Shown: piece after piece, positions 54,385-57,778 of the stretch
How positions within the stretch are numbered: the first letter of the stretch is position 1
Layout of the letters: every line of letters begins with the position of its first letter
Assembly: GCA_024222295.1 (NCBI GenBank)
Contig: JAAEPF010000051.1
Span: 124,001 to 188,000, forward strand
Reading direction: 5' to 3'
Source: Actinomycetes bacterium
GTDB lineage: Bacteria > Actinomycetota > Acidimicrobiia > Acidimicrobiales > Microtrichaceae
DNA: 64,000 bases
Translations under genes and position numbers: made by a program
The notes under the pieces: model-generated
What the model was told of the DNA's origin: nothing
Seen by the model: only the letters and a program-made list of their open reading frames with translations
The model's database searches: none

Positions 54385-55419
54385 ATGGACCTCAATGAGC
54401 TGACACCCGAGCTGTTCGAGAAGGCGGAGTTCAATGAGCGCCGCCGCGGCTACGACATAGACCAGGTCGAACGCTTCCTCGAGGAGACCGGCACTGCTGT
54501 AGCGCAGCTTCTGGTGCGCCATCGTCAGCTCGAGGAGCGCGCCTCGCAAGCCGAGACCCGTCTCGCCGCAGCTGAAGAGGAACTGCAGAACGCCAAGGCT
54601 GCGCCCGCAGCACCGGCGGCCCCGGCGCGGCCGGTGCCCTCTCCCGAAGAGGAGGCAGAGGAGGTCGAGCAGGCAACTAGCACCCTGCTCATGGCCAAGC
54701 GCACAGCGGATGCCACGATCGAGGAGGCTCGCGGCGACGCCGCCAACGTGCGCGCCGACGCATCGGCTGAGGCACAGCAGATCATCGCCCAGGCGCGTTC
54801 CGAGGCTGCGGCCGAGCTGAGTGCCGGACGCGAGAAGCTCATGCAGATAGTGACTGCCCTGGAGACCCGCCGCGACTCGCTCGGCGCAGTGGTCGAGGGA
54901 TACGAGCAGCGCATAGCCGGCTACCGCGACCAGCTCGGCGCGGTCGCTTCAGCACTGGTTTCCATGACCGAGGATCCCGAGGCGATGGCCGCACGCCCCG
55001 ACGTGCACATCCCGTCGACGGCCGAGGGCAGCGCCGCAGACGACCCGGCGATTGCTGGAGCACCGGAGCAGGACGAGGTCGACCTGACCGACCCCACCCA
55101 GCTGCACGACACCGCCACGGCCGCACGTGCCGACGGCTGGGGCGAGGGATCGTGGTCCGACGTGGCCCCTGCAGAGCCTGCCCCGGTCGAGCCCGAGGCA
55201 GCTGACGCAGCGGCTCCCGCAGTCGATGCGAACTCCCGGGAGTCTTCGGTCGTGGTCGACGCCGAGCCGGTCACCGGCCAGACCTCGGACCGCTTCCTGC
55301 GTGAGCTCGACGAGGCGGTCAACGAGTCGACGAAGGACGAAAAGGGCGAGGCCATCTCGGCATTCTTCGAAGGTGGCGACGAGGAGCAGGGCCGGGGCCG
55401 CTTCGGCTGGCGCCGCTGA
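54385..55419 (+). CDS. divIVA: DivIVA/Wag31-type polar growth protein
   Basis: 344 residues from the ATG at 54385; the frame opens earlier but the family N-terminus starts here. The lipid-binding domain reads [20 protein letters not shown], then [20 protein letters not shown]. Coiled coil follows at about 40-75 and 95-195 ([20 protein letters not shown]), broken by an Ala/Pro linker. The C-terminal 130 residues are acidic and disordered, ending in [20 protein letters not shown]. DivIVA marks negatively curved membrane and directs polar growth or septation. It has its own leaderless promoter. Confidence 0.93.
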
Positions 55420-55425
55420 TCCACA

Positions 55426-55439
55426 CCGGCTGAAGCCGG
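55426..55439 (+). terminator. Short hairpin after divIVA
   Basis: CCGGC-TGAA-GCCGG, a 5-bp stem with a 4-base loop just after the divIVA stop. A weak terminator candidate with no T-run. Confidence 0.35.
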
Positions 55440-55499
55440 GATCGTCTGCAGCCGGCTGAATCGCGCCTGGAGGTGGGAGGCAGACACGCATCGAGCGGC

Positions 55500-55505
55500 T
55501 AGGGT
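55500..55505 (+). promoter_or_regulatory. Possible -10 box of the DksA-like gene
   Basis: TAGGGT about 42 bases before the ATG. The leader has AAGGAGA (55536-55542) as Shine-Dalgarno. Confidence 0.45.
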
Positions 55506-55547
55506 TCTGCGACCCCAAGCTGCACCCGCCGGGCCAAGGAGACTGCG

Positions 55548-56219
55548 ATGGCGCCAGCCAAGAAGACACCTGCCAAGAAGAAGGCTCCGGCGAAGAAGAA
55601 GGCGCCGGCCAAGAAGACACCTGCGAAGAAGAAGGCTCCGGCGAAGAAGAAGGCGCCGGCCAAGAAGACACCTGCGAAGAAGAAGGCTCCGGCGAAGAAG
55701 AAGGCGCCGGCCAAGAAAACACCTGCCAAGAAGAAGGCGCCGGCCAAGAAGACACCTGCCAAGAAGAAGGCGCCGGCCAAGAAGGCACCGGCCAAGAAGA
55801 AGGCGGTTGCGGCCAAGAAGGCGGTGGGCAGGAAGCCCGCAGGCAAGTACCCCTTCGACAAGAAGTTCCTGAACTCCCAGAAAGCCCTCCTCGCAGAGGA
55901 GCGTGCGACCCTGGCCGAGCAGGCCGAGTCGCTCAAGGCCGAGGCAGAGTCGCTCGCAATGGACCGCGAGCCCGGAGACGTCCAGTTCGACGAGGAGTCT
56001 GGCGAAGGCGACAGCCTCGCCGTGGAGCGCGACTTCGACCTCGCACGCGCCGCCAAGAACCAGCAGATCATCGAGGAGATCGACGCCGCGTTGGTGCGCA
56101 TCAAGAAGGGCACTTACGGGGTCTGCGAGTACTCTGGCAAGTACATACCCAAGGAGCGCCTCGTGGCCATCCCTTGGGCCCGGGAGCGTGTCGAGTACAA
56201 GACGAGCCGCTTCCGCTGA
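55548..56219 (+). CDS. DksA/TraR-like protein with histone H1-like Lys/Pro/Ala tail and degenerate zinc finger
   Basis: 223 residues. Residues 1-97 are a repeated Lys-Ala-Pro tail ([10 protein letters not shown] units), like the C-terminus of histone H1. The rest is DksA/TraR-like: two helices forming a coiled coil (about 107-185) and the family end [20 protein letters not shown] followed by [14 protein letters not shown]. In normal members the finger is CxxC...CxxC. Here only Cys193 remains, and Ser196, Arg214 and Tyr217 replace the others, so zinc binding is unlikely. The order DksA-like, lspA, rluD, later dnaE matches Streptomyces. It may bind DNA through the tail and RNA polymerase through the coiled coil (inference). 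Confidence 0.88.
55560..55778 (+). repeat. Tandem repeats encoding the Lys/Pro/Ala tail
   Basis: A 51-bp unit encoding [17 protein letters not shown] is repeated three times (55560-55712), followed by two 33-bp units encoding [11 protein letters not shown] (to 55778). Copies are nearly identical, so the tract is likely to vary in length between strains. Confidence 0.9.
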
Positions 56220-56264
56220 TCCGGGCGGCGCGTCGGCGCCGCCCCTGTGCAGGACGCCGGACAG

Positions 56265-56855
56265 ATGCCGAAGAGCAGCACCGAAACCAGACCGACCCAT
56301 AGATGGCTGTTGCTCGTCGTCAGCGCTGCGATCGTGCTCGTCGCGGACCAGCTCTCCAAGTGGTGGGCTGTCAGCGAGCTTGCGCCCGACCCCACCAAGA
56401 AGGTCGAGATCATCGGGTCGCTGCAGTTCCGCTACGCCGAGAACACGGGTATGGCCTTCTCTCAGGGTGCCGGCTCCGGGCGATGGATCGGGCTGATCGT
56501 GATCGTGATCGTGATCGCACTCGTCGTGTTCGCCTCGAAGGTCCGCAGCAAGGTCCAGGTGGTGTTGCTCGGGGTCGTGATCGGCGGTGCGCTGGGCAAC
56601 CTCATCGACCGGGCGTTCCGGGCCGAGGAAGGATGGCTCAGTGGGGCCGTGGTCGACTTCATCGACCTGCAGTGGTGGCCCGTGTTCAACATCGCGGACA
56701 TGGCGGTGGTGCTGGGCGGGATCCTGCTGGTGATCTGGTCCACCCGCGACCCGCAAGAGGACGAGCTCGACGAGCCCGACGGCTCCGACGCCGACGATGC
56801 GCGCGCCGCTGCCGGGTCGGCGGGCGACGAAGCTGCCGCAGACACGCCCGGGTGA
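56265..56855 (+). CDS. lspA: Prolipoprotein signal peptidase
   Basis: 196 residues from the ATG at 56265; a GTG at 56247 is in frame. LspA cuts signal peptides from prolipoproteins at the lipidated Cys. Four membrane helices, the first near [20 protein letters not shown]. Conserved motifs: [35 protein letters not shown] with the first catalytic Asp, and [20 protein letters not shown] with the second. The C-terminal 45 residues are acidic and disordered, longer than usual. It overlaps rluD by 4 bases. The GerMN lipoprotein in this window is a likely substrate. Confidence 0.94.
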
Positions 56856-57778
56856 GCCGGACCTACGCCGCCGAGACCGTTCCTGCCGCTGCGGAGGGCG
56901 AGCGAGTCGACCGTTTCGTGGCGATGATGGTCGACTGCTCGCGCTCGGAGGCCGCCGCGGCGCTCGAGTCGGGCAACGTCACGGTTGGAGGGCGCGTGGT
57001 GGTCAAGGGGTCCCATCGCCTGGTCGAAGGCGACGTGGTGGCTGTGGCCGAGTCACCACACCGCGAGCGCGTCCTGCCGGGATCCGACGGCTCCATACCG
57101 CTCGATGTGGTGCACTCCGACGCCGACATCATCGTGGTCGACAAGCCCGCCGACATCGTGGTGCATCCCGCGCCCGGCCATGCTGACGGCACGCTGGTCA
57201 ACGCGCTGCTCGCCCGCTTCCCGGAACTGGCGGTCGTCGGTGAGCCAGAGCGCCCCGGCATCGTGCATCGCCTCGACCGCCAGACATCCGGCCTGATGGT
57301 CGTGGCCCGCACCCCCGATGCGTATGACTCGCTGGTGTCCCAGCTCGCAGACCACAGCGCACAGCGAACCTATGCGGCGCTGGTGCTCGGCCACCCACGC
57401 CACTCCCACGGCGTGATCGACGCACCGATCGGGCGGTCACATCGCGACCCCCAGAAGATGACGGTCGCGGTCGACGGCCGCGACGCCCGCACCCACTACG
57501 AGGTGGAGCACCAGTTCGCAGAGCCCCGTGAGTGTGCACTGCTCACCTGCGAGCTGGAGACCGGACGCACTCACCAGATCAGGGTGCACCTCGCCTCGAT
57601 CGGCCACCCGGTCGCCGGCGATCCGACCTATGGCGGGTCCAGGCCGGACCTCGACATCACGCGGCCGTTTCTGCACGCACGCCGGCTGAGCTTCGTGCAT
57701 CCCGGGACGGGCGACGAGGTCGCCTACGCCTCGGACCTGCCGTCCGACCTGTCGGCCTGGCTGGCCGACCTCAGCTGA
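56852..57778 (+). CDS. rluD: RluD-family pseudouridine synthase
   Basis: 308 residues from a GTG overlapping the lspA stop. An N-terminal S4 domain ([20 protein letters not shown], then [14 protein letters not shown]) binds RNA. The catalytic domain has [20 protein letters not shown] and the RluA-type motif [20 protein letters not shown] with the catalytic Asp, then [20 protein letters not shown] and the FLHARRLSF segment. RluD acts on helix 69 of 23S rRNA in other bacteria; the exact target here is inferred. Position after lspA is conserved in actinobacteria. Confidence 0.93.

Follow-up and report, generated by a model that had tools for sequence, protein, structure and literature searches.

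Can a single protein chain join a histone H1-like tail to a DksA-type RNA polymerase factor that has lost most of its zinc ligands, and is such a chain peculiar to one genome or common to a lineage? The question is raised by a gene at 55548..56219 (+ strand) of a 64,000-nucleotide stretch of DNA, hereafter the window, from an Actinomycetes bacterium of the class Acidimicrobiia (GCA_024222295.1, contig JAAEPF010000051.1, positions 124,001 to 188,000). A reading made from the letters alone, hereafter the sequence-only reading, had described a DksA-like coiled coil with an H1-like Lys-Ala-Pro tail and three of the four zinc-binding Cys replaced, and had suggested that it may tie RNA polymerase to the nucleoid. 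In Streptomyces, an H1-like/DksA-like nucleoid protein named DdbA was reportedly described by Aldridge et al. in 2013 (Nucleic Acids Res. 41:4813). The analysis described here indicates that the loss of the zinc site is inherited and clade-wide, and that the window protein is probably the counterpart of DdbA in the lineage Acidimicrobiia, a nucleoid-associated protein whose tail would lie on DNA and whose DksA-type domain would act in the RNA polymerase channel.

An H1-like tail and a DksA-like domain in one chain

The open reading frame begins with ATG at 55548, its stop codon ends at 56219 as previously given, and the product of 223 residues consists of the H1-like tail followed by the DksA-like domain, as judged from the reading frame and profile matches. 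The tail occupies the N-terminal residues 1-99 (55548..55844, +) and is composed of 42 Lys, 30 Ala, 16 Pro, five Thr and one Arg, with no Asp or Glu, giving a net charge of +43. Its DNA is an approximate tandem repeat, for which the top-scoring description has a period of 51 bp and 5.1 copies. Upon screening of all six frames of the window for stretches of 60 residues without stop that contain at least 70% Lys/Ala/Pro/Thr and at least 20% Lys, only the frame of this gene passed. The H1-like character proposed by the sequence-only reading was confirmed in this sense, while the likeness to the histone H1-like family HC2 (PF07382) is compositional only, the score being 18.4 bits against a cut-off of 40.

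Among 123 orthologs, 88 were used for counting the tails, after removal of 19 duplicates and of 16 with less than 40 residues of upstream open frame or with unknown bases. A Lys/Ala/Pro-rich tail was identified in 83 of these 88 distinct orthologs, the exceptions being a Lys-poor form (locus L011), a weak one (L046), one with frame slips (L048), a short one (L084) and one with none (L136). Other families of this phylum also have similar tails (L152, L153, L159). Tailed and tail-less proteins (L173, L174, L176 for the latter) are both located beside an lspA motif, and thus tails were possibly gained or lost more than once. Many public contigs (L057, L060, L062, L064, L066, L069, L072, L082 and others) start or stop within a few hundred bases 5' of the DksA-like domain, inside the tail repeats or close to them, which suggests that the repeats break assemblies. 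In addition, the titles of some metagenome-assembled records, Bifidobacterium breve for L057, L063, L077 and L094 and Acidobacteria for L070, are unfit for so close a relative and look misassigned.

The DksA-like part comprises residues 100-223, as defined by Pfam and NCBIfam matches. The score against zf-dskA_traR (PF01258) was 24.7 bits for the whole protein, with a cut-off of 24.9, and reached 25.9 bits for the C-terminal part and 27.4 bits in the genome search; the four Cys ligands of the dksA/traR C4 (four-Cys) zinc finger of this family are not all present. An AlphaFold2 model, made with the 75-row alignment described below, predicted a coiled coil plus a globular domain of the DksA type. 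The mean predicted local distance difference test score (pLDDT) was 80.9; confidence drops to low values in the tip and in the final residues (at the C-terminal end, means of 79 for model residues 111-120 and 49 for 121-124). The predicted helices are the first coiled-coil helix at residues 105-138 (55860..55961, +; 6-39 of the model), the second at residues 154-187 (56007..56108, +; 55-88 of the model), and a C-terminal helix at residues 215-222 (56190..56213, +). The acidic tip, residues 146-155 (55983..56012, +), was located by the alignment of relatives. The top fold matches of this model were E. coli DksA (Protein Data Bank entry 1tjl; Z 12.7, 115 residues, 2.4 A) and P. aeruginosa DksA2 (4ijj; Z 12.6, 115 residues, 2.6 A), and the best Foldseek match was also DksA2 4ijj. 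DksA proteins filled the six top rows, with Z of 9.3-12.7, followed by an unrelated protein at Z 7.8; the DksA-like coiled coil of the sequence-only reading is borne out by the model.

Loss of the zinc ligands in one clade

Relatives were searched with the 125-residue C-terminal part as query. At E <= 0.001, matches, which are not the same as orthologs, were obtained in 39 of 41 genomes (distant ones only in some, such as G025 with a best E of 3e-8); the two without a match, G006 (90% complete) and G018 (78%), belong to one genus and have fragmented assemblies. The scan of named genome contigs used the best 80 of 478 relative-encoding stretches, a sample that leans to window-like forms. The records of these relatives are labelled mostly Acidimicrobiia, Acidimicrobiales, Microthrixaceae or unplaced Actinomycetota. 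The 123 orthologs, gathered by a tip pattern, were reduced to 76 at less than 90% identity and gave 75 aligned rows. A mobile origin was also considered and was rejected, as no relative was confirmed in viral contigs and phage records gave no match at E 1e-5.

Within the former C4 finger at residues 193-217 (56124..56198, +), defined by alignment and tree, Cys193 is kept and the other three ligands are replaced by Ser196, Arg214 and Tyr217, exactly as had been read from the window. The states at the four positions in the 75 rows are CSRY (37), CSRF (14), CSRH (3), CSRI (1), CSRV (1), CSKY (2), CSCC (1), CCCC (8), SSLE (7) and STSE (1). Thus the first Cys without the second is found in 59 rows, 58 of which are C-S-R/K-x, and the remainder is divided between eight rows without any ligand Cys and eight with C4. 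Outside the 75 rows, seven named loci missed by the tip pattern, which vary slightly in the tip, are all C-S-R (L085 with Glu as the last residue), the fragment L001 has four Cys, no finger was found in L144, and G028 and G032 are probably C4 as judged from the reach of their Pfam matches.

A tree of the 75 rows and eight outgroup rows was constructed after removal of the four ligand columns. In this tree, in which 83 rows share 122 columns, many forks are left open and long branches meet at the outgroup, all rows that lack the second Cys fall into a single 67-row clade (support 98/97). Nested in this clade as a group with full support (100/100) are the eight rows in which no ligand Cys is left; the C4 rows branch earlier, and the five rows closest to the window protein are all C-S-R with Tyr or Phe as the last residue. 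In the simplest reading, three ligands were apparently lost once and then the last one; the disappearance of the zinc site from this one branch of bacteria seems to be ancient. L140, the CSCC row, is from another order of the class and stands on a long branch; it may be misplaced, and its two other Cys could then reflect a step that came earlier, or a loss of its own. One no-Cys form, L137, gave no Pfam match at E 0.001, which points to an annotation gap.

The ratio of nonsynonymous to synonymous substitution rates (dN/dS) was 0 to 0.22 in the 40 closest pairs among the 71 that were eligible, and 0.12 to 0.28 between the window gene and five relatives; the selection is purifying. Decay of the gene, or an error of sequencing or assembly at the finger, which the sequence-only reading would have recognized by close relatives with all four Cys, is favored only by the repeat nature of the tail, difficult to assemble. 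The same residues are, however, found in relatives from separate assemblies, and the five nearest rows share the C-S-R state. Together with the purifying selection, this leaves such an explanation hardly any probability, and it was rejected.

The sequence-only reading also proposed a general actinobacterial factor. DksA-like genes beside the lspA motif are indeed widespread, but a general factor of this architecture is not supported: three of the proteins beside this motif are tail-less as noted above, 55 of 198 genomes of the phylum lacked a match at E <= 1e-8, and C-S-R/K in place of the Cys ligands was observed in just a single clade among the kin of the window protein. The tail-less L174, of the same class and beside the lspA motif, carries a different loss, CTVA. 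Other actinobacterial DksA-like proteins (L146-L151, L156, L160) have the form CxxC...CxxD, with Asp for the fourth Cys.

Comparison with DdbA and other DksA proteins

Two papers that cite the DdbA work (PMC9043899, PMC11942623) describe Streptomyces DdbA as an H1-like N-terminal domain fused to a C-terminal DksA-like part through which RNA polymerase is modulated, according to one of them in concert with guanosine tetraphosphate (ppGpp); its deletion affects nucleoid compaction and spore stress resistance. DdbA is SCO2075, and the adjoining locus number SCO2074 is lsp. The window protein shares with DdbA the basic H1-like N-terminal tail, the C-terminal DksA-like domain and the place beside lsp/lspA, a gene order that the sequence-only reading had correctly noted for Streptomyces and that is common to other actinobacteria. 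The same order was found in L166 and L167, probably from Streptomyces, in which a tailed gene with CCCC or, in L167, CCCD stands beside the lspA motif. An hhalign comparison with four tailed Streptomyces-like domains gave a probability of 99.5, E 3.4e-23 and 31% identity. The difference is in the ligands, CCCC/CCCD in the Streptomyces-like proteins against C-S-R-Y in the window protein, and in the tip sequences. The suggested tie between RNA polymerase and nucleoid largely coincides with the DdbA model in print, and the binding of the window protein is predicted by analogy with it.

With E. coli DksA (1tjl) the window protein shares the fold and the Arg125 and Lys139 positions, but E. coli DksA has a C4 finger, a tip of the DxxDxA type, Lys98 and Arg129, all of which are missing here. 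The closest solved chain by sequence is C. trachomatis Dks (6ptg), which also has a CxxS half-finger, with Thr and Ser at the third and fourth ligand positions; it differs in these replacement residues and, at 132 residues with the match starting at residue 21, has no room for such a tail. DksAs without a C4 finger that are still DksA-like in function are described for Pseudomonas, Rhodobacter and Sinorhizobium (PMC9239242).

P. aeruginosa DksA2 (4ijj) is likewise a DksA fold without zinc, expressed under zinc starvation as a second copy, and the window protein might by the same logic be a zinc-saving substitute for a zinc DksA. The only ribosomal L31 found in the source genome (L184, G000:C2:108876-109112) is Cys-free, in agreement with such a role. 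DksA2, however, keeps two Cys, and its chain of 136 residues has no room for a 99-residue tail, whereas the window protein has one Cys, a basic tail and a single copy: the source genome (97% complete) contains one match to the DksA/TraR family and no second match to the C-terminal part of the window protein. Zinc saving is not general in this genome, since S14 (L185) and L36 (L186) keep their zinc-type Cys, and no Zur-like box was detected in the window at up to 3 mismatches to one consensus. The zinc-saving role is therefore improbable.

The tail plus DksA-like architecture is already known from Streptomyces, and so are working zinc-free DksAs. What is new is that the zinc site was lost throughout a clade, apparently in steps, and that no basic residue stands at two of the positions that contact ppGpp in DksA. 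The window protein is thus probably a zinc-free DdbA-type protein, with known parts in a new combination; this combination was not found described in the literature searched, a coverage that leaves out most subscription papers.

Contact residues and the proposed role at RNA polymerase

The position of DksA Arg125 is Arg in 75 of 75 rows (Arg204 in the window protein), and at that of Lys139 each of the 75 carries Lys or Arg. In E. coli DksA, ppGpp is contacted by Lys98, Arg129 and Lys139. The position of DksA Arg91 is mostly Gln, but HMMER places an insertion there and no claim is drawn from it. The DxxDxA tip motif is critical in TraR, and its counterparts are essential in DksA.

A number of observations weigh against a DdbA-type role at RNA polymerase. 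The Lys98 position is never basic in the 75 rows (Glu, Gln, Asp or Leu), nor is the Arg129 position (Ile, Leu or Met), and the same holds for the C4 rows. DxxDxA as such is not present, the tip being QFDxExGEGD in the 75-row alignment; its pairing with the DksA tip is ambiguous, as gapped and ungapped alignments differ, and residue-level claims on the tip are unsafe. The NCBIfam DksA and yteA models matched at E 1e-10 to 1e-17, all under their cut-offs: the best match, to the YteA family (TIGR02890), reached 64-66 bits, separating the window protein from this family with its cut-off of 134.4 bits, and the curated DksA equivalog models gave 40.5 of 115.5 bits (TIGR02420) and 41 of 105 bits (NF033459). 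The fold tool warns that Z below about 13 for helical models may reflect a common arrangement. Finally, the name DdbA for the tailed Streptomyces-like genes rests on architecture, neighbourhood and locus numbers. On the other side, the distance in Z from the unrelated rows, together with the matches obtained independently by sequence, argues for true DksA kinship, and the DksA-like identity, as judged from sequence, is real but weak by curated models. Since two of the basic residues at the ppGpp contacts of E. coli DksA are replaced by non-basic ones, action without a DksA-type ppGpp site is expected.

The loss of ligands, the altered tip and the lost basic positions would also fit a protein that is mainly a nucleoid protein acting through its tail, its DksA-like domain being kept as a scaffold, with its control of RNA polymerase lost. 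Mycobacterial HupB carries a Lys-rich tail, and the single HU of the source genome (L183) is short, with 94 residues from Met, and has no Lys/Ala/Pro tail; in this genome the H1-like tail is carried by the DksA-like protein and not by HU, and the former may hold the H1-like role. A mere scaffold should drift more, however, while the C-terminal domain is the conserved part (71% mean column identity over the 75 rows), Arg204 is invariant and dN/dS is well below 1. The tip is conserved too, although this is partly built in, the rows having been chosen by a pattern from that tip. A pure nucleoid role is therefore judged unlikely.

The tip, rich in Glu/Asp but without DxxDxA, might instead act on elongating or backtracked polymerase rather than at initiation, as in a Gre-like or other secondary-channel factor; Gre factors have DxxExA. 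Against this, the top fold matches are DksA proteins, no Gre family was included among the Pfam or NCBIfam matches, and the genome has one GreA of its own (as well as one RelA/SpoT), making a Gre-like function a slim prospect.

Neighbourhood of the gene

A Shine-Dalgarno-like AAGGAG, read in the sequence, lies at 55536..55541 (+), 6 bases 5' of the ATG. The upstream neighbour is a gene of the DivIVA family (54385..55419, +; PF05103, 43.7 bits), and downstream are located lspA for signal peptidase II (56265..56855, +; PF01252, 122 bits) and a gene for an RluD-type pseudouridine synthase (56852..57778, +; PF00849 and S4). By motif tests, in which near-identical loci are counted, 115 of the 122 loci that extend for 700 bases or more 3' of the gene carry the lspA motif there, and 83 of the 91 that extend for 1500 or more carry the RluD motif. 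A scan of 55300-56400 for promoters and terminators found none, the scan itself being uninformative. An antisense open frame of 611 residues on the minus strand (54921-56756) overlaps divIVA, the tail gene and lspA, and is probably a by-product of the high G+C content and the AAG-rich repeats.

Proposed mode of action and its meaning

As the protein is real and conserved, it is presumably functional. For a DdbA counterpart, the tail would be disordered and would bind and condense DNA without sequence preference, while the coiled coil would enter the secondary channel of RNA polymerase, where the acidic tip may act near the active site. Ordinary packing would suffice to keep the globular part folded in the absence of zinc, as for P. 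aeruginosa DksA2. By enriching the polymerase factor locally at the chromosome, the tail could link compaction to promoter control. A bolder proposal, rather doubtful at present, is that one large Acidimicrobiia clade has a metal-free polymerase factor independent of the DksA-type ppGpp site, held on the chromosome by its tail and shaped by one-way ligand losses (from C4 through C-S-R-x to none), for which the input would be the state of the nucleoid and not an alarmone or the zinc/redox state.

The idea embodied in DdbA, that one chain may unite a polymerase factor with a chromatin-like tail, would thereby be extended to another lineage of Actinomycetota, and the natural series of C4, one-Cys and no-Cys orthologs may serve for testing the need of DksA for its zinc site and ppGpp contacts.
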